From: Dichotomocladium elegans
Taxonomy: Eukaryota > Mucoromycota > Mucoromycetes > Mucorales > Lichtheimiaceae
Reading direction: 5' to 3'
Assembly: GCA_025716815.1 (NCBI GenBank)
Contig: JAIXMN010000006.1
Location: forward strand, 1 to 64,000
DNA: 64,000 nt
Under the pieces are notes generated by a model. That model had not been told where the DNA came from, searched no databases, and saw nothing but the letters and a program-made list of their open reading frames with translations. The translations under genes and the position numbers were made by a program. Positions 12,192-64,000 of the stretch are shown here, one piece after another. Each line of letters begins with the position of its first letter. The stretch's first letter is position 1.

Positions 12192-12305
12192 GGCGCAAAT
12201 GATCTGTTAAAAGAAAAAAAAGAAAAGAAAGAAAATAGCGCGGGGGGGGTGAAAAACTCAATAAGTAGAAGGGACAAGAATCATTGACAAGACCTGAAAG
12301 CATAC

Positions 12306-13830
12306 ACTATTTTCCCAAAATCAAAGTCGCACCCCTGCCAGCTCCGGAGCCGCAGGATCACAAAAATGAAATCGCCTTTTGCCCAGAATAAGCATGATGA
12401 ACAAATCAAATGTCACATGCACCCACGAGAGAGGTCGCTTCCATCCCTTTTATACGCTTTTACATTCTGAAATGAGCAATCCATTTTTCTACTGCGATGG
12501 CCAAGGTCAGGTCGTCGATGAGCGTGGCTATTCTGAACCTATGGACTATGTTGATGAAGAATTGTATTCTCTGCAATCCGTTTGTTCTCACGTTGAATAC
12601 CTTGCGAACTATATTTTGCGGAGATAACTCTGATCTTACTACCACACACATTCCCAAGCGAAAGTGTACAGACATTCGGATGAAATAAGCAGGAGTCAAG
12701 CGCAGTTACACAGCGTACATTGACAAAGACAAGGTCAGGTTTATCAAACTGATGTTTGAAGAGGTCTTGAGTCCACCAGCTGGTCCATGTTCATTCAGCT
12801 CAGCGATGGGGATTACGATACGAGAAAGACCCTGACAGCATCTTTAGGAAACCTAAAGCGAGGGATCGTTCGCGTGTTCTCAATGAAGAGCATAACAGCG
12901 TCATTTTAGAATGCATTGATGAGAATCCATCCATTGTCCTAGAGGAGCTGATGGAGCAACCGCTCCAGAGATTTGAGCGCCTTAAAAGTCTCAAGAATGG
13001 CGCCCCATCGATTTATGAAAAACGAATATAACTTGTCACTGAATGGATCGGTTCAACTTCTAGAAGGAATAGCAATGCAAAGATTGACTTAGTGCGTAGA
13101 TAGAACAGAACTGACATTAGCTTTATAAGAAACTGCGTTCTCCTTGACGAGCCTGGATTCCATATTAATATGAAACGCAGCAATGGGATGGTCCAAGAAA
13201 GGACTGCTATAGTGGTCACAATACCAAAGACAACCACAATCGTGGGAGCAATCTCAGCATTAAGGATCATTAAATGTTTCTTGAGACACTCACAGCCATC
13301 AATCAAGGAAAGAAAGAGGGCAGGTCAATCTGAAGTTGCGAGCAGAGGAACTGTAACTGGACATTACCTCAGCTTCCTTAAGGCTACGAAGGGGGAGATG
13401 GATAAGTATGAACATATGAAGGCCATTATTCGGTGATGGATAATGCACCTATCCATAAGGCTGATAATATCTCTATATGCATCGAGTCTCGAGGGTATCG
13501 ATGTGCCTATCTTCCACTATACCCGTCTGAACTCAACCCGATTGAGCGGCTTTGGTCAGTTGTAAAGAGCAAAGTAGAAAGTAATAGGTTACCCTATCAT
13601 ACCGACTTGTTCCATTCTGCAATCTTCTAAAATTGCTGATGCTCTGTAGATAACCATATCAGCCTAACTCAAGTGCTTCGAGAGGAGAAGATATGGGCTC
13701 AGGATGGGACCGTGGTTTGGCTGCACCCGCGCAGGTCTCCCATCATGGCTTCGTCGAGGTGCTTTTGTCTTCGTCTGCTTCCTCCGTTGCTTCTCCTGAT
13801 GTTTCTGCCGCTAATGTTGTGGTTGGTCCG
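12306..13830 (+). mobile_element. Tc1/mariner-IS630 type (DD34E) transposon relic, copy 1
   Basis: The left part (12306-12420) is shared with copies at 22640 and 56905. The transposase is read in pieces: an N-terminal block near 12470-12626, a helix-turn-helix region near 12680-12800, the first catalytic Asp in LDEPGFHINMKRS (about 13144), PKTTTIVGAISA (about 13230), the second Asp in MMDNAPIHKADNI (13433), and the Glu in YPSELNPIERLWSVVKSKV (13520-13575). The last two acidic residues are 34 residues apart. Several stops and frame changes between the blocks mean no active enzyme. Confidence 0.88.
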
Positions 13831-13995
13831 TCGTCATCCCTCCTCCTTCCTTCCTCTCTGTTCGCCATTGTTACCACGATGGTATACCTGGCTATCTTCG
13901 GGGTAAGTTGAAGAGTAAGAAGGGGGCTGATATTTTCTGTTGACTAGCGGGTATGCATGCGACAAATGTTTTTATTCGACATTTTATTTATATGC
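13830..13995 (+). repeat. 3'-tail repeat shared with 24640-24850 and, weakly, 60620-60805
   Basis: This stretch matches the reverse complement of about 24640-24850 through TTGGTCCGTCGTC, GCCATTGTTACC, ACCTGGCTA and CTTCGGGGTAAGTTGAAGAGTA. It ends with TTTTCTGTTGACTAG and a TGCGAC-rich tail. The GTAAGT...GACTAG part looks like a short intron (13903-13947). A similar intron-like block and TGCGACATTT tail lie after the Fanzor gene. Confidence 0.65.
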
Positions 13996-13999
13996 GTCA

Positions 14000-14470
14000 T
14001 AATTTTCCTCGCTTGCGAAGTTTCCTTTCGAAAATAAACTATAAACAACTGCATCAGGTGCTAAAAAGCATGTCACATACACCGTAATTGATTGACACAG
14101 TAGATATAGAGAGCTGGTAAGCGTTCAGTGGAGATACAAGGTCGAAACAAGAAACATGCTGACATATTTACGAATAACACAATCTACATACATAACGGGA
14201 TGTCTCTCATCTTCCCCTCAAGCACTCTGACCCAACTGAAAAGTCTGGAGTATAGCACATTCTGAAATCATCATGGCAGTCGTCATTGAAGGACTTACGC
14301 TCGTTTGTTGATATCCGACCTATTCACAATAAATTTCATTGGTTGCGGTAACTTGCTTTTGATTGGCCCACAACACTCCACTGCTCATCCCCGTGCAATC
14401 CTATTTCAGCCACCCACGAGCACGGCAGGGCTTCGCTTCTGTTCAGGTCTTCTCCTCCCGCAAATACTGT
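14000..14470. other. intergenic, probable CCT6 promoter and 5' leader
   Basis: I see no gene. The CCT6 5' exon should begin here because its start codon is split by an intron at 14480. No clear TATA box was assigned. Confidence 0.4.
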
Positions 14471-24639: not shown

Positions 24640-24850
24640 TCTTTTATTTTCAAAAATAAAATTCGTCGCATAAATAGAGAAGGCCGTAGACATAGCCGTC
24701 AGTCAACAGAAAATATCTGCCACCTTCATACTCTTCAACTTACCCCGAAGGTAGCCAGGTGTACCATTGCGGTAACAATGGCGGGACAGGGAGGAAATGA
24801 AGGAGTCGTAGCTGTTGAGCGTCGACGACGGACCAAGGACTATATGGCTT
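24640..24850 (-). repeat. 3'-tail repeat of the mariner/Fanzor family, reversed
   Basis: On the minus strand this reads TTGGTCCGTCGTC ... GCCATTGTTACC ... CTTCGGGGTAAGTTGAAGAG ... TTTTCTGTTGACTGA and ends TGCGACGAATTTTATTTTTG. It lies downstream, in the minus sense, of the decayed Fanzor copy at 26.1-27.1 kb, as would be expected if it were that element's right end. Confidence 0.6.
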
Positions 24851-56838: not shown

Positions 56839-56904
56839 ACTCAATACCCTCAGCATGTTTATGATTATATGTTGCATGATCGAAGGCCCAACATCCTTGA
56901 TATA

Positions 56905-57530
56905 TAGCATTTTTCAAAATCAAAGTCGCACCCTGCCAGTTCTGAAGTCGCAGGATCGCAAAAATACAAATCCCATTTTTTCCCGGAAATCTTTACGCGT
57001 GATGACAAAGCAAATGTCGCATACATACACGGAAAGATGTCGCAAATCCATCTCATCCTTATGACTCTTTCTCTTTATAAACTTTTACATTTTGAAATGA
57101 GCAATCTATTATTTTACAACGATGGCCAAGGTCATGTCGCTGATGAGGAAATGTACTCACTTCAATCCGTTTGTTCTTACACTGAATATCTGCGTAGCAT
57201 ATCGTGCAAAGATAACTCTGAGTTTACTCTCACACACATTCCCAAGCGAAAGGATACATACATTCGGATGAAAGAAGCGGGGATCAACGGCAGTTACACA
57301 GCATACACTGATCAAGGCAAGGTCAGATGTTTCAAACTGGTGTTTGAGGAGGTATTGAGTGCATCAGCTGCAGCAAAACAGCTAGGACTCCATGTTCGTT
57401 CAGCACAGCGATGGGCATTACAGTAAGAAAAGGATCCTGACAGCATTTTAAGAAACGTAGAAGTAGAGGGCCGATCGTGTATTCTCAATGAAGAGCATTT
57501 ATTGTTCTAGAATGCAATTGTCGCTAGAAG
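56905..57530 (+). mobile_element. Tc1/mariner-IS630 fragment, copy 3 (N-terminal half)
   Basis: The leader (CAAAATCAAAGTCGCACCCTG and the following 100 bases) and the open frame 57037-57426 match copy 1 closely. The frame reads EMSNLLFYNDGQGHV, SLQSVCSYTEYLRS, HIPKRKDTYIRMKEAG, and then a helix-turn-helix (SAAAKQLGLHVRSAQRWAL). It is cut before the catalytic domain. This copy gives the cleanest view of the DNA-binding half of the family. It lies about 0.9 kb upstream of the Fanzor ATG. Confidence 0.88.
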
Positions 57531-57539
57531 ACTAAGTTT

Positions 57540-57885
57540 ATTCTTGGAAAGAACAAAGAACTATGGGAGTGTCAATGAGCCATTTAGCCTGGGATTGTAA
57601 CTCCGAAGCTGGTTATCAAATGGAATAATGAAGTAATGGCTTTCAGGAGACTCCTGTGTTCTCATTGTAATATTCAGAGAAATTATTCATTATGTACCTA
57701 CACTTCCTGAACGTATGGATAAGGATGACAGCAGTGTCGTGTTTTGTTGTGTTGTAAGAGACTGAGAGAGTACGAAAAGAAATACAATCTTCCTACACTA
57801 CACAAGTGCCGGATATGTATCGGATTATTCTTGAGATGGTCTCTTGGAATTACTTGTTGGAATTGTTTGGGATTTCATTGTTGAT
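57540..57885. other. spacer between the mariner fragment and the Fanzor leader
   Basis: No gene seen. Sequence is A/T-rich with no recognised repeat. Confidence 0.35.
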
Positions 57886-57908
57886 TTCAGACCTCCCTCA
57901 CGTCGATA

Positions 57909-58080
57909 CAGTGGCCGCCCGTTATAGTGACACCCTCGGTTCCAGGAAATCGCATCACTATAATGAATTATCACTATAATGAATTGGAATAAGCCCTACC
58001 TGGCAATTTTGTCCTTCATAAAGTGTATCGCTATAACGAATTATCATTATAATGAATATCACTATAACGAGCGGCCACTG
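57909..58080. mobile_element. 172-bp pogo-type MITE with TA target duplication
   Basis: The ends are CAGTGGCCGCCCGTTATAGTGA and the near-exact complement (plus strand TCACTATAACGAGCGGCCACTG). The interior repeats CACTATAATGAATT and similar. TA flanks it at 57907-57908 and 58081-58082. Removing it restores the repeat arm CTCACGTCGATAAAACCTC seen at 1853-1931, so the MITE is inserted into that older repeat. Confidence 0.9.
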
Positions 58081-58146
58081 TAAAACCTCATTAAAGAACC
58101 CAGTGGGAAAAAGAAAAACACTGTGGAGATGGATCATTGCTGACAC

Positions 58147-58154
58147 TATAAATA
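58147..58154 (+). promoter_or_regulatory. TATA box candidate for the Fanzor gene
   Basis: TATAAATA lies 172 nt before the ATG at 58326, directly after the partial repeat arm (58081-58140). A promoter role is inferred from position only. Confidence 0.45.
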
Positions 58155-58325
58155 GTGATGCTCAAGCAAGCTGTCCCTTTCCATTATCCACATACAAAAC
58201 TAGAGCCCATACAGCCTACAGAAAATAACACAGCACCACATTTACGGTTGAAAGGTAATACGGCCGCTTTCATACTCGGCTCTGCGATACTAAGAAATAA
58301 TATACCCTAGGTCTTCACCCACCAA

Positions 58326-60524
58326 ATGGCCCAACCCCACCGCCCCGTCATTCCCGAAGGCATGCGCACTGGCCACAGCATTGACCGCACTGGCCGTATA
58401 ATTGGGGTGAAATCGTCCATACGGGGCATCGGCTGGCGACAGCAGTACCGTGAACGTCTGTATCAGTTGGTTGACCTTGTCCACAACACCACAACACAGG
58501 CGTACGCGTTCGCCAAATATATTTTCATCAACGAGGCAGCGCGCGATCCAACTTTTAACATACAGGAAAATATCACGGAGAAGTTCTTTTCAGAAGTTTG
58601 GCTCTCCATGGTTAACAAAGCCGAACGCCGCACCCAAGGTGAAACTGCCCGCATCCGAGAACTAATTAATCGCCACAAGGATGAGTACCTTCGGATATCC
58701 GGATACGACAGGCCTGCGTTCCCGTATTCCCAGCAATGTTCTTCTTACGAAGGCACCAAGATTTATACTGCTTACGTGAATAATGTCCACATGCGGTTCG
58801 GGCAACACCTTCGGCGTGTCATCAATGTCATCCTGAATCTTCGTCAGCGAAAAGCCGACCGCAAGCGAGAGTTAATCGCACAGGGCCTAAGCCCCGATCA
58901 AGTACGCCAGGACCTTTATGAAACCATCACCCGGCATGCCACAGGATTCAAGCTAGCAATTGCCCGTCGAGGTGTTTTGAGGGAAGACATTAATGCCGAA
59001 CCTGGATTTCTTCGGGAAGCATACGATATCCTACAACCTGTCTTAAACGCTTACCCCCGAAACCACCAATTCCAACACCAGAGTATCTATTACGACGCCA
59101 AGGCCAATCCTGTTAAGCATTTCAGCGCCTTCTTCCAGCTTGCACGCGTTTGTCAACAGAACGGAATACGCGGATTCAACTGTTTTCCACTTCGTCGCTC
59201 GTGGTCACCATGCTACATGGAGATCGATACGAAAATCCTTTGCTACCATATCCTGGGCTGCAAAATGGAATCCCACACAAGCAATATGGAGTACTGGAGA
59301 CGTGTTGTAAACCTGAAATCAAGAGCTTTCAAACCCCAAGAATCCGAGCTGCTCCAATTCCGTGGGACTATTCACACTGACGGCGTCGGTGTTACTGTGT
59401 TCAAGAAGACAAATGGCCTTCAATCGGGTTTCGGACAGAGATTTGGCATCCAGAGCGAAGATATCGAATACGTCACCCCACAGATAGTCCGGAACGAAGA
59501 CTATAGAGGACAATGGGTCACCATTGATCCTGGCAGAAGGAACCTGTTGTATTGCGTTCATGAGAACTCGTCACCCGACAACCACCAGACCTTCCGATAT
59601 ACAAAGCAGCTTCAAGATCATACACAGAAGACCAAACGGTACCGCAGACTTCGAGAACGACTCAAGTTAGAGCGACCCGAGGTCGCGTTGGCTGAGCAGA
59701 ATCTATCTCAATTTCAAAGTCATACGATTTCCGTGCCCAACTACGACGGATACCTCGCCGCCAAGAATCGGGTCTCTGTAGTTCTCAAGTCTTTCTACGC
59801 GACAACCACTACGAACCACCCGAACCCGCAATTTCTTTTTCGAAAACTTCGCCTGTCAGCGTTTTACAAGAAGCAGCAAGCAGATGAAAAGCTTCTCGAC
59901 TCTTTGAATGCGAAGTTTGGCAGTAGGTCCGTTTTCGTGATGGGAAATTGGTCTGCGCCGCATACAAAATATCACGAGCCTATCCGTGGTGTCGGCTTCC
60001 GGCGGCTGTTGAAGAAGAACAATTGCAATATTTATTTGATCGACGAGTACAAGACAAGCAAGTGCTGCCCTGTATGTGACAATGAAAGCCTTGCTACCTT
60101 TAAAATGGTTCCTAATCCACGCCCATATCGACGATCCGACAACCCGCTCACGATCTGCCATGGCCTGCTACGGTATGAAGGACGGGCATGTTGTGTTATA
60201 TTTCCAAAAGATTATAATACAGTATTTTGATGTTTCAATAGATGCACAAATCAAAACTGTACAGCAGGCATGGCAGAGGGTGTTTGTCAACCAAGGTTAT
60301 GGAACCGGGATCTGGCGGCGGCTCTCAACATGCATCATATCCTCCGGGGTCTTCGGGAAGATGGTATCATCCCAGCAAGGTTCCAGAGAAGAAATGCTGC
60401 ACAAGCATCCGCAGCTGGTGGAAGGCCACACTCACCTGAACCAGAGCAGCGCAGCGTGAGACAACGACGGGCAAGGCCAGGAAGGCCACGAGGTGCACGC
60501 TCTGGCGGGTCGAGACGACCGTAA
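58326..60524 (+). CDS. Fanzor: eukaryotic TnpB-like RNA-guided nuclease, apparently intact
   Basis: Fanzors are the eukaryotic relatives of IS200/IS605 TnpB and Cas12; tested members cut DNA guided by an RNA made from the element end. Two exons, 58326-60172 and 60242-60524, are joined by a 69-nt GT-AG intron and give 709 residues. RuvC-I is TIDPGRRNLLYC (D401), RuvC-II is LIDEYKTSKCCPVC (E574) and RuvC-III is LWNRDLAAALNM (D639). The zinc ribbon uses C581-x2-C584 and C617-x4-C622. The second pair exists only after splicing; unspliced, the frame ends at 60230 and loses D639. Residues 1-390 are helical and basic, as in the recognition lobe. The last 40 residues are Arg/Pro/Gly-rich, with nuclear-signal character. 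ATG context is CACCAAATGG. Whether it is Fanzor1 or Fanzor2 needs a tree. Confidence 0.93.
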
Positions 60525-60805
60525 CCCCAACCAAGTATTTTCCGCGTCAGTTATCGCTGACGCACCCAGGATAACCACAGCCCTTCGGGCAAGCCCCCTT
60601 CCTTTGGAAGGACGGTGTGTTGTAAGTCAACGGGATTGGAGAAGGCGTAGTGTTTTTCTGTTGACTAACAGGGTTTCATCCATGGATGGGAAATCTTTTT
60701 ACCTATTGATACGACAAATTTATATAATTCTATGCGACATTTTTCTTGTATTTTGCACGACATTATTTTATCTTGTTTACGACATTTATTTTTGACAATA
60801 AAGTA
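60525..60805 (+). ncRNA. candidate Fanzor guide-RNA scaffold and element right end
   Basis: Directly after the stop are three perfect hairpins: GCGTCAG/CTGACGC (60544-60563), GCCC/GGGC with a TTC loop (60580-60590) and CCTTCC/GGAAGG with a TTT loop (60597-60611). Then comes an intron-like block (60622-60671) with TTGACTAACAG, followed by TGCGACATTTTTC and ACGACATTTATTTTTGAC repeats and AATAAA at 60797-60802. Known Fanzor and TnpB guide RNAs start near the ORF end and run to the element's right end. Position and structure fit that; transcription is not shown. Confidence 0.4.
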
Positions 60806-61028
60806 TAGCATCAAGGAAATCAGAATACCTTTCTTACTTATTTTAGTGCGATAGAGTGGTGAAACTTATGCAGCCAATAGGATGTTGAATGTCAGGACCG
60901 CAACAATCTTACTGCAATTTCAAGCTATTTGACTTTCTCGGTGCTTTAATACGATACCTGGCCGTCACAGCAAGTATTTGCACTACCATCATACTCTCTA
61001 CCTTGCCTTTTACGTGTTGTCAAACCAA

Positions 61029-64000
61029 ATGTCAAAATCGAGACGCGGCCGTATCAGTAAAAGTCGCTTCGATGCCCTTTCTGATTGGGATCCTTTAAGG
61101 TACATTTCTGTTCCCTCCATCAATGCATTTGGATGTGCGAGCAGCGGGTTCACTGAGCAAGGGATCACAGTGATGAGAGTGGTTGGACTACTATAGATGC
61201 CTCTTTAAATCGACAAACCAAGCAGTTTGACGTCAAAAATGTGTACTCTATACCAAGTGAACGCAGCTCTTCAAATTTCAACTTTACGAACAACAATCAA
61301 AAGAGCGATCCGGCGATGGAATGGAGGGTTGATATGCAGGAGGACTGGAATATGGCTCCAGTACAACAGATCCAACCTTGGTCCCTATCGGCTCACATTG
61401 ATGAGCATACGGGCGAGCCTCGTTTTAGCAAAGAACATTCTGATAATATTCGAACCTTTAAGTTAAATGCAGACGTTGGAAACCAGCGATACTTTACAGA
61501 ACAAGTTGACTACAGCTCTTTCCGTGATCGCTCTGTCGTGCCAACCCAGGAAGATATATTAGAGGAACCGGAAGAGACCACTTACCAGGATGAACCGCAA
61601 CGCTATGGACAGGTTCCGAACGTCCCTATAAACCGAGTGCGAGGACCGTACGATAGCCCTGAGCAATATCTTTATACACAGTTTGAGCTGATGCGCAACG
61701 ATGCACTGATTCCTCTACGGAACGCTGTCAGGTCATATCGTGAAAGCTGTCATCCGGTAGAAGAGGTTGATTTCTTTGCTGACAATATGGGCACACCGCG
61801 TGCTCCCGCCACCAGCCAAAGTTTCAGATTGTTTCGGAAGTATGAGCATGTAAGCCAGAGATGATGCATGGCACTATGGTCTCCGTTGATATGCTTACAA
61901 TTTAGACAGGTTCGTCTGAATGCATTAGTGTTTGGAACGCGCCACGTATTGTATCGGATCAGTTTTCGTTTACCGCACGAAGAGAATAATGTGAAGTGGC
62001 CATCGTCAAAGCGACTTATTGAGGGCACCCTTGTCATGCTCTCGAAGGATGACTTTCAGACAGATATTAAGATCGCAACGGTGGTGGAAAGAGGCGAAAT
62101 ACCTATGCGAGGAAGTAATCGATTCGAATACATGATTGACATCAAACTGGAGAGAGATAATGAAAGACTTCCACTTGGATATGGTGATCCGCTCATCCGA
62201 GATCAAGAAAAATACACGATGGTATGACCATATAACCAGTGAACCATCATAACAATGTTAACCATGAGTGCTCGGCAGATTGAAGCTGTTGATGGCTATT
62301 TCGAAGGTAATCGCGGCATCTAGAATCAACGCTATCAATCTCCATATTGATCTGTTCACTGCAGCATATCGGCATATTCTATCTGTGATCCAGAGAACCC
62401 AGCCATCTGACCTTCCATTCTCCCCGCAACTTGTGGATGTATCACCAGATGTCCGCCTCCCTCACTATGCCGCTATGAAACGAAATTACGACATCGCAGA
62501 ATATCGCGATGGTCGATGCCAAGGCCAATCTAAACCTATCGATATCACCAGCCCATGGCCGGTGTATAATATTGGTATGGATAAGACACAGATGGACGCT
62601 TTGAAAACAATACTTTCCAACAATGTTTCTATTGTTCAGGGTATGAAGTGATGAAATGTCTTTGTGTTAGTGAATTTCTTAACATAGAGAAATTAGGTCC
62701 CCCTGGCACCGGTAAGACATTCGTTGGTACCTATGCCATGAATGTCCTATTGAATAACTTCCCTGGCAGCATTGGGCCAATTGTGTGTATATGCCAAACA
62801 AACCATGGTAAACAGATATGCAATATGGAAAGAAGATGAGTGCGCTTACAAAGAATATCTTCGAAGCTCTGGACCAATTCCTAGAGCATATTTTGAAATT
62901 CAATGATCAAATTGTGCGTGTCGGAGGTCGCTCGAAATCCGAAGAGCTAAAGGAGTACCTTCTTTATGAGTTACGCAAGCAAGGTGAAGGTGCTAAGGGT
63001 GTCAGCCGACTTTACCGGAAGCGTGATGAACTTGAGAAGAAGATTCGAGACACTATAATTCAACTTTACGAAGAGCCATGTGTGACGCTGGAATACATCA
63101 GGTCGGTCAAGGGCTTGAGTCCAAGACAGTTGGACAGCATCAAACGGTTAGGTGAGCGGGAGGCAAAACAGGTCGAAAAGGCCAATATAGCTAGCGAAGA
63201 ATACGCTTGGTTCTCTTCGCCCGCTCCTGCTTCCGTTCCAGCAACTAGCCTCCCACCACGAAAACAACAGCAGAAAAAGAAGCGCGGCGATAATCGAGCA
63301 GGGTCTAAGGACGAATGGTCTTCTGGCAATCCGAATTTAGAAGAGGATACCGAAGATAAGCTCAATCCGGTCGAAGTCTGGTTGAAGGATGCAATTGAAT
63401 ACATCAATAGCAATGGCTCTCTTTATACGGCTGCGGACGAGCTAAGAGATAAACTGCTCGAACAGGAACAAGGTCTTTTCTTTGAGGAAGATGAACAAGA
63501 TGACCTGATTGATGAGGACGAGTTGCAGGAGATCACTCTCAACTTTGAAGAGCCCCCGGATCTTCGCGGCAATAGGCAAAAATCGTTTATCAATATCGGT
63601 TATGCCTATAAAAAGAAACAGAGCCAGGGTAATCGGCAACTCTCGTTTTACGAACAGATGATGGCGGATGGCCGCAAAGATATCGGAAACGAGCGCAAGG
63701 TTATCAACTATAACAAGATCAATCCCGCGCGGAAACCTGTAGCCCTTGAAATTGATGACGAGTTTAACTTTTTTGACGATCTCATTGATCAACCAAGTCC
63801 TGAGCCTACACACTATGTCATGGAGCGATGGATGCGGGAGGAAGAAGATGCTACTTTGTGGCCGTTACCAGTACGATTGGAGGCACACAAACGTTGGGCG
63901 GAGCAGAGGAACCGGGATTTATCTGCAGTCTTGAGGGGGCTGGTGGCCCAATACGACGCGGTCTCGCAGGATATTCGAAAGGTGTTCGTGCAAAAAGATG
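61029..64000 (+). CDS. NFX1/ZNFX1-type SF1 helicase, 5' part (runs off the window)
   Basis: Family members (ZNFX1 in animals, Hrr1 in fission yeast) bind RNA and act in RNA silencing or antiviral responses. Exons are 61029-61099, 61171-61849, 61910-62221, 62279-62306, 62365-62640, 62697-62807 and 62867 to beyond 64000. The N-terminal block YDSPEQYLYTQFELMRND is the usual ZNFX1 signature, followed by VFGTRHVLYRISF. Walker A is GPPGTGKT (split by the intron 62641-62696) and motif Ia is TNHALDQFLEHIL. A long charged insertion follows in exon 7 before the downstream helicase motifs, which lie outside the window. The start ATG at 61029 is inferred from splice phase. It lies about 500 nt after the Fanzor stop. 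Confidence 0.88.

Follow-up and report, generated by a model that had tools for sequence, protein, structure and literature searches.

What does a seemingly intact Fanzor gene in the fungus Dichotomocladium elegans (Mucorales, Lichtheimiaceae) belong to, and from where would its nuclease obtain a guide RNA? In the present work, we examine these questions in a window of 64,000 nucleotides, which is the whole stretch of DNA analysed, and compare the locus with its copies elsewhere in the genome. We find that the gene lies in a multi-copy transposon, and that the unusual part of this element is the predicted guide-RNA gene at its right end rather than the nuclease. Papers are cited here by their PMC numbers.

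The Fanzor1 gene and its product

The first-pass annotation of this locus had described a Fanzor gene that encodes 709 residues after removal of a 69-nt intron, with all RuvC acidic residues, a full zinc ribbon and a basic C-terminal tail. The gene is composed of the following parts:

58326-60172, forward strand: Fanzor1 exon 1, which carries D401 and E574
60173-60241, forward strand: intron of the Fanzor coding sequence, 69 nt, gtatga...caatag, interrupting the zinc-ribbon codons
60242-60524, forward strand: Fanzor1 exon 2, with the second zinc-ribbon cysteines, D639, the basic tail and the stop

The protein length is borne out, as exons 58326-60172 and 60242-60524 join into a frame of 709 amino acids; unspliced, the frame meets a stop at 60230. 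The intron is also backed by evolution, because in six older copies (L019-L023 and L030) it measures 64 or 65 nt, neither divisible by three. In two of these the frame is open only once spliced: L019 (64-nt intron, GC-AG) gives 709 amino acids, and L022 (65-nt intron, GT-AG) gives 702.

All three acidic residues were found, D401 in IDPG, E574 in IDEYKTSKCC and D639 in WNRD. They align with D383, E541 and D606 of SpuFz1, a mapping counted by hand along the PDB-match alignment (tag offset 394), the residues of SpuFz1 being named as in PMC11423790. After splicing, a C4 zinc ribbon is present (CPVC and CTNQNC, with C581xxC584 following E574-YKTSKC), and the basic tail is contained in exon 2. The protein also carries the Fanzor fingerprint, namely DPG in RuvC-I, a glutamate six residues ahead of the zinc finger and a late RuvC aspartate; the first two of these are described as such in PMC10711439.

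Searched against the PDB sequences, the spliced protein matches PpFz1 (7e-130) and SpuFz1 (1.1e-51). The Pfam TNB model scores 12.6 bits, under its cut-off of 26.3, and Pfam, NCBIfam and Rfam gave no above-cut-off match to Fanzor or omega RNA; PF26935, listed for homologues, was not reported for the window Fanzor. In a protein search no close entry was found, the top scorers being proteins of Syncephalis and Mucor that are 46% identical. The structure prediction was made for a relative (P0001, 46% identical) and not for the spliced window protein. It has a mean pLDDT of 71.5, with a poor C-terminal part, and its seven best structural matches are PpFz, SpuFz and GtFz structures. For the clustering of D401, E574 and D639 we relied on the alignment with solved structures and not on this model.

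Sequence, triad and zinc ribbon thus uphold the view that the gene is intact: by these features the protein is a Fanzor1, and it is predicted to be an RNA-guided nuclease that cuts DNA. The earlier account is nevertheless incomplete, since it missed the multi-copy state of the gene, the sharp transposon ends, the content of the right end and the missing full transposase.

The element, its copies and its transposase

The gene lies within an element with the following features:

56911-60803, forward strand: Fanzor-carrying element, ~3.9 kb, with its ends where most of 30 copies stop matching
56903-56910, strand not assigned: left copy of a direct repeat; its sequence, TATAGCAT, is longer than usual for an element that duplicates TA
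57073-57498, forward strand: relic of the N-terminal part of a Tc1/mariner-type transposase, sharing 69% identity with residues 37-191 of the L034 transposase (475 aa)
57907-58082, strand not assigned: nested MITE of 176 bp, which has inverted repeats of 24 nt
60804-60805, forward strand: TA target-site duplication, which opens the right direct repeat 60804-60811 and is predicted to pair in SL2 once spliced

A genome search gave at least 80 matches, from 71 scored of 854 candidates, and 30 copies were fetched with their flanks for comparison. In most of them similarity drops off sharply near 56901 and 60807. Half of the copies (15 of 30) are intact as to length, splice sites and triad. For 14 of these 15, L011 being left out on account of a failed start match, we counted 35 replacement against 44 silent distinct changes. 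The resulting pN/pS of 0.24 means that selection acts on the Fanzor protein, and, judged from these substitutions, the Fanzor copies have multiplied under purifying selection.

The right terminus reads AAAATAAAG and is followed by TA, which was found in all 22 Fanzor copies with both ends read; the next base is T in 21 of the 22. The right flanks of these 22 copies are 22 different sequences, and no paralogous empty site was found among the flanks of the fetched copies. The TA target duplication is that of a Tc1/mariner (DDE_3) transposon. The window element holds no full DDE_3 transposase, only the relic: its first 0.6 kb codes for the N-terminal portion of a transposase found complete in L034 (475 aa, DDE_3 106 bits). 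Because of this reduction we regard the window element as a non-autonomous derivative.

The 475-aa transposase has two open copies at 100% identity among 116 matches, which are mostly partial or stop-bearing. These two (G000:C57:1663210-1664634 and G000:C44:468248-469672) are candidate partners acting in trans. Two more open transposases, with a 452-aa frame and 58% identical, lie in opposite orientation ~4.5 kb apart (G000:C31:604362-605696 and 610245-611579).

Some further observations concern the surroundings of the gene. In the window, L002, L015 and L025, direct repeats of 6-9 bp stand in place of TA, the right flank recurs in the bases beside the left end (TATAGCAT, TATACC, TATAGCCAT and TATACC, respectively), and the left terminus departs from its usual TACACC; microhomology repair following a break is perhaps the origin of these repeats. 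The MITE is present in young Fanzor copies, L020 and L021 without it show its empty site, and L022 carries a 92-bp form of it. Just past the element, 61157-64000 holds reading frames for a protein that has a ZNFX1 domain (PF25396, 67.5 bits in 61865-62227) and a helicase-like P-loop; short introns possibly interrupt these frames.

Intron-like signals and a covarying stem-loop in the right end

We now consider the right end, for which the following features were found or predicted:

60540-60621, forward strand: predicted omega-RNA scaffold, made of SL1 and an enlarged SL2 region
60544-60563, forward strand: SL1, a 7-bp stem with a TTATCG loop, the predicted first omega-RNA stem, covarying across families
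60622-60627, forward strand: GTAAGT, predicted 5' splice site
60661-60669, forward strand: TTGACTAAC, predicted branch point, with AG immediately after it (60670-60671)
60622-60803, forward strand: predicted right-end intron, 182 nt, containing the repeat-rich right end, its 3' AG (60802-60803) being the element terminus

Across the right ends the same order recurs: GTAAGT, 11-34 nt, a TGACTAAC-like motif, 30-142 nt, and the terminus, commonly AAAG and then TA. Our counts refer to 69 of 105 candidate right-end rows, retained by scaffold and end motifs with no filter on AG. The set includes 29 of 32 extra fetched right ends (L051, L071 and L073 are out); L001, identical to the window, was left out, and L018, L035, L036 and L041 also fall outside. 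An exact GTAAGT is present in 62 of the 69, a count that is conditioned, since rows were chosen by loose scaffold-5' splice site, branch and end motifs; the count of TA directly past the end, 64 of 69, is free of this. All right-end families are related by descent and were taken from a single genome, and relatives sought in other collections gave no match.

Exact layouts from 5' splice site to branch motif number 29 and 60 genome-wide, compared with 0 for the reversed-pattern controls. Conservation among 25 diverged copies is 0.96 for GTAAGT, 0.93 for the branch motif, 0.86 between them and 0.77 in the interior of the tail.

An AG very near a branch point should not serve as a 3' splice site, and for this reason the first 6 nt past the branch motif were skipped in the AG counts. 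From there to the terminal AG, 58 of the 69 copies are AG-free. Over the same tail stretch, 14 families less than 75% alike hold 2 AG, compared with 57 GA and 56 CT, while 1000 shuffles gave a mean of 40.5 AG and a minimum of 24. Without the skip the 14 families hold 5 AG and 61 GA (shuffle 46.5, lowest 30). Between 5' splice site and branch, AG is not depleted (43 AG, 38 GA, shuffle 37.9).

In 36 of the 69 copies, the window included (CTAACAG), an AG falls in the first bases past the branch motif, and only 23 are entirely AG-free between motif and terminus. If the intron is real, such an AG must be too close for use and be skipped. As a 3' splice site, the AAG at the terminus is weak. With the reservation of the 36 early AGs, the succession of GT, branch motif and AG with AG exclusion is that of a spliceosomal intron, and the right-end pattern is, as far as sequence can tell, that of an AG exclusion zone (PMC1431707) running from a branch point to a distant 3' splice site.

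As to the host, a scan of the window for its intron signals was not enriched, with 3 hits compared with 7 in the reversed control. The CCT6 gene of the window shows branch-like CTAAC, CTAAT or TGACTAT in three of its four introns; host branch-point usage was checked on these four, which were read by eye and confirmed by a 100% match of the protein to Dichotomocladium elegans CCT6.

Could the signals arise with no intron at all? The motifs would then reflect common ancestry and transposase-binding repeats, and AG would be missing by chance, through the composition of these repeats. The tail does contain repeated ATGCGACAT-like motifs that are AG-less, the copies are all of common descent, and the left ends, read outward, likewise show fewer AG than GA (3, 5 and 5 against 11, 10 and 10 per 140 nt). 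However, the left ends are AG-lean and not AG-free, and the loss in the right end is specific to one strand (56 CT, 2 AG in the 14 families) and starts at the branch motif. We hold this explanation to be very improbable.

Ahead of GTAAGT, 240-260 nt inside the right terminus, lies SL1, which with its TTATCG-like loop is common to families whose Fanzor proteins are only ~56% alike. Its stem changes on both sides together, as in GCGTCAG/CTGACGC, GTGTCGG/CCGGCAC and GCCATTG/CAATGGT. In 30 distinct sequences, L035 and the second of the L039 right ends being excluded, 88.6% of the cells are paired and 50 are altered on both sides; shuffles give 20.5 two-sided changes (none of 500 reaches 50) and slid controls no more than 9. 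The 7-bp SL1 of a Fanzor1 omega RNA is thus present as predicted covarying DNA; SL1 is 7 bp in all three solved Fz1 omega RNAs, and SL2 of PpFz1 is 4 bp (PMC11423790). In the short type of right end, SL1 is followed by about nine bases, TACC-UUCG-GG and then GTAAGT.

Consensus folding was calculated with alifold on 24 of the 69 right ends, picked for diversity. The 46 nt ahead of GTAAGT have a conserved fold (-5.6 compared with -0.17 for shuffled columns), and the last 75 nt at the terminus have none (0.0, in a gappy alignment). A structured scaffold abutting the right end, as in a contiguous OMEGA guide, was therefore not found in these 24 chosen and gappily aligned ends.

This result bears on the option of an ordinary contiguous omega RNA, with the last 60-90 nt as scaffold and the upstream stem-loop as an extension or unrelated. 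Such an arrangement has precedents in SpuFz1, whose mature RNA has a scaffold of 75 nt across the right inverted repeat and, in addition, 14-15 nt of flank (PMC10432273), and in SfAV, where the scaffold includes the TIR (PMC10711439). RNAfold, too, does not favour the spliced hairpin: spliced SL2 is no more stable than a hairpin formed with the unspliced GTA (-2.5 vs -3.5; -3.2 vs -3.3), the junction hairpin is the best fold in just 7 of 38 short-type copies, and the window type folds without use of the splice junction. However, the 24 chosen and gappily aligned right ends show no conserved structure over their last 75 nt, and this option leaves the AG scarcity, GTAAGT and the branch-like motif unaccounted for; we consider it quite unlikely.

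We also looked for intron-less copies with a scaffold-TA junction; the single match, compared with 5 for the reversed pattern, has no adjoining SL1 and was rejected as chance.

The same right end is found in relatives of the element, two of which lie in the window:

12299-14039, forward strand: old transposase-only relative, with SL1 near 13863, GTAAGT at 13903 and TTGACTAGC; its terminus is AAAC, not AAAG
24640-24792, reverse strand: a second relative, represented by a degenerate right end that has SL1, GTAAGT and a branch-like motif; the right end alone was read

The first of these consists of left end, transposase and right end, with no room for a Fanzor. In L034 (1822-8702) the Fanzor lies on the strand opposite to the transposase and right end, one left and one right end being recognised, and the right end retains SL1, GTAAGT and the branch-like motif despite the inverted Fanzor. 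Three other right ends (C79:1337195, C68:1209347 and C51:200819) have, by coordinates alone, a same-strand transposase match ~0.3-0.5 kb away. L035 was considered as a second case of an inverted Fanzor and rejected: GTAAGT and GTTGACTAAC are kept, the SL1 pairing is lost and the locus is rearranged, so that only L034 is counted.

These relatives help to judge a third option, in which the right-end intron is real and belongs to the 3' UTR of the Fanzor or transposase mRNA. Splicing would then alter the fate of the mRNA or fuse flanking sequence to it, and the guide would be made otherwise. The same intron signals apply, the predicted 5' splice site is 97 nt past the Fanzor stop, and in the 12299-14039 relative the layout lies downstream of the transposase. 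Unexplained would be the covarying SL1, which in the short type precedes the splice site by ~39 nt, and the layout of L034, which stands on the strand opposite the Fanzor. We regard this option as unlikely, if less than far-fetched.

A guide RNA probably completed by splicing, and known systems

The observations to be explained together are an intact multi-copy gene, defined element ends, the conserved SL1, GTAAGT, the branch-like motif and a strand-specific scarcity of AG, in a right-end layout shared with one transposase-only relative (12299-14039) and one inverted-Fanzor relative (L034). They point to an omega-RNA gene that is probably split by a spliceosomal intron, with the 3' splice site at the transposon terminus, so that splicing would join the scaffold to a guide derived from the flank. 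Since the intron-like stretch ends exactly at the element edge, splicing would probably attach the neighbouring DNA as guide:

60806-60825, forward strand: predicted guide, i.e. flanking DNA, for which 22 copies have 22 differing right flanks; the length is by analogy with PMC10432273

Starting from the insertion, the RNA of the right end would be transcribed and then spliced, and the product would be an omega RNA in which SL1 and SL2 are joined to TA and flank. SL2 would form across the junction as TACC-UUCG-GG|UA, with the TA duplication in its stem. Counting against this reading are the folding energies given above, the early AGs, the weak terminal AAG, the AG-lean left ends, the scan for host intron signals and the unpaired SL1 of L035. 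Splicing would in this way free the guide RNA of the right-end repeats, presumably kept for the transposase. After excision, a Fanzor loaded with the spliced RNA could cut the empty site (TA and flank), and repair could then copy the element back into it. We would give somewhat better than even chances to the wider proposal that the spliceosome assembles Fanzor guides at every insertion and, in addition, that transposase-only relatives with the same ends supply guides to, or share them with, Fanzors made elsewhere.

If correct, this would be a new route to a programmable guide RNA, the target sequence being spliced on at the edge of the element. It would also show how a eukaryotic transposon reconciles ends that bind a transposase with a guide RNA that reads the adjacent DNA. 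The common ends give a testable link between Fanzor and a transposase; no transposase sharing the ends was found in Spizellomyces (PMC10432273).

The best PDB match, PpFz1, is likewise a Mucorales Fanzor1 (Parasitella parasitica, PDB 9cf0-9cf3, PMC11423790). Its very short scaffold also has a 7-bp SL1 and a 4-bp SL2 (PMC11423790), and its TAM, ATN, fits the TA-T beside the insertions of the window family (third base T in 21 of 22). PpFz1 differs in having an FRI insert and in its 75-nt omega RNA, which is described without an intron (in PMC11423790 the word "intron" is absent and "splic" occurs in other senses). SpuFz1 of Spizellomyces punctatus is also a multi-copy Fanzor1 with an aligning triad, accompanied by Fanzor-less "ghost" loci that retain the omega-RNA end; these ghost omega-RNA loci were described in 2023 (PMC10432273). 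Unlike in the split predicted here, scaffold and right inverted repeat are contiguous in SpuFz1, and no transposase was found between the ends, whereas relatives of the present element carry one (PMC10432273).

PUl-4 (Bao and Jurka 2013, PMC3627910) resembles the window element in that it carries a Fanzor1 between Mariner ends, is flanked by TA duplications and lacks a transposase; for Fanzor-only Mariner elements of this type the text available describes no guide-RNA gene, and "intron" is absent from it. In the SfAV Fanzor1 reRNA, as here, the target-site duplication belongs to the scaffold and the guide begins after it, but the TIR is folded into the scaffold, while here it would be spliced out (PMC10711439). 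In a guide-RNA sense, "splic" and "intron" are absent from the main texts of PMC10432273, PMC11423790 and PMC10711439. Among the matches listed for this fungus, and for introns or splicing in connection with Fanzor or TnpB, no title or opening of an abstract mentions a spliced omega RNA, in a collection largely outside the subscription literature; the nearest report concerns circular omega RNAs in archaea (PMC12558985).

If omega RNAs can be split in this manner, searches for scaffolds at right ends would miss them. A related conflict between intron and TnpB guide RNA exists in bacterial IStrons, where the intron ends at the transposon end and the element can carry a TnpB-family gene. The IStron intron is, however, a group I intron that removes the whole insertion, whereas the intron predicted here is of spliceosomal type, lies inside the right end and would complete the guide RNA.
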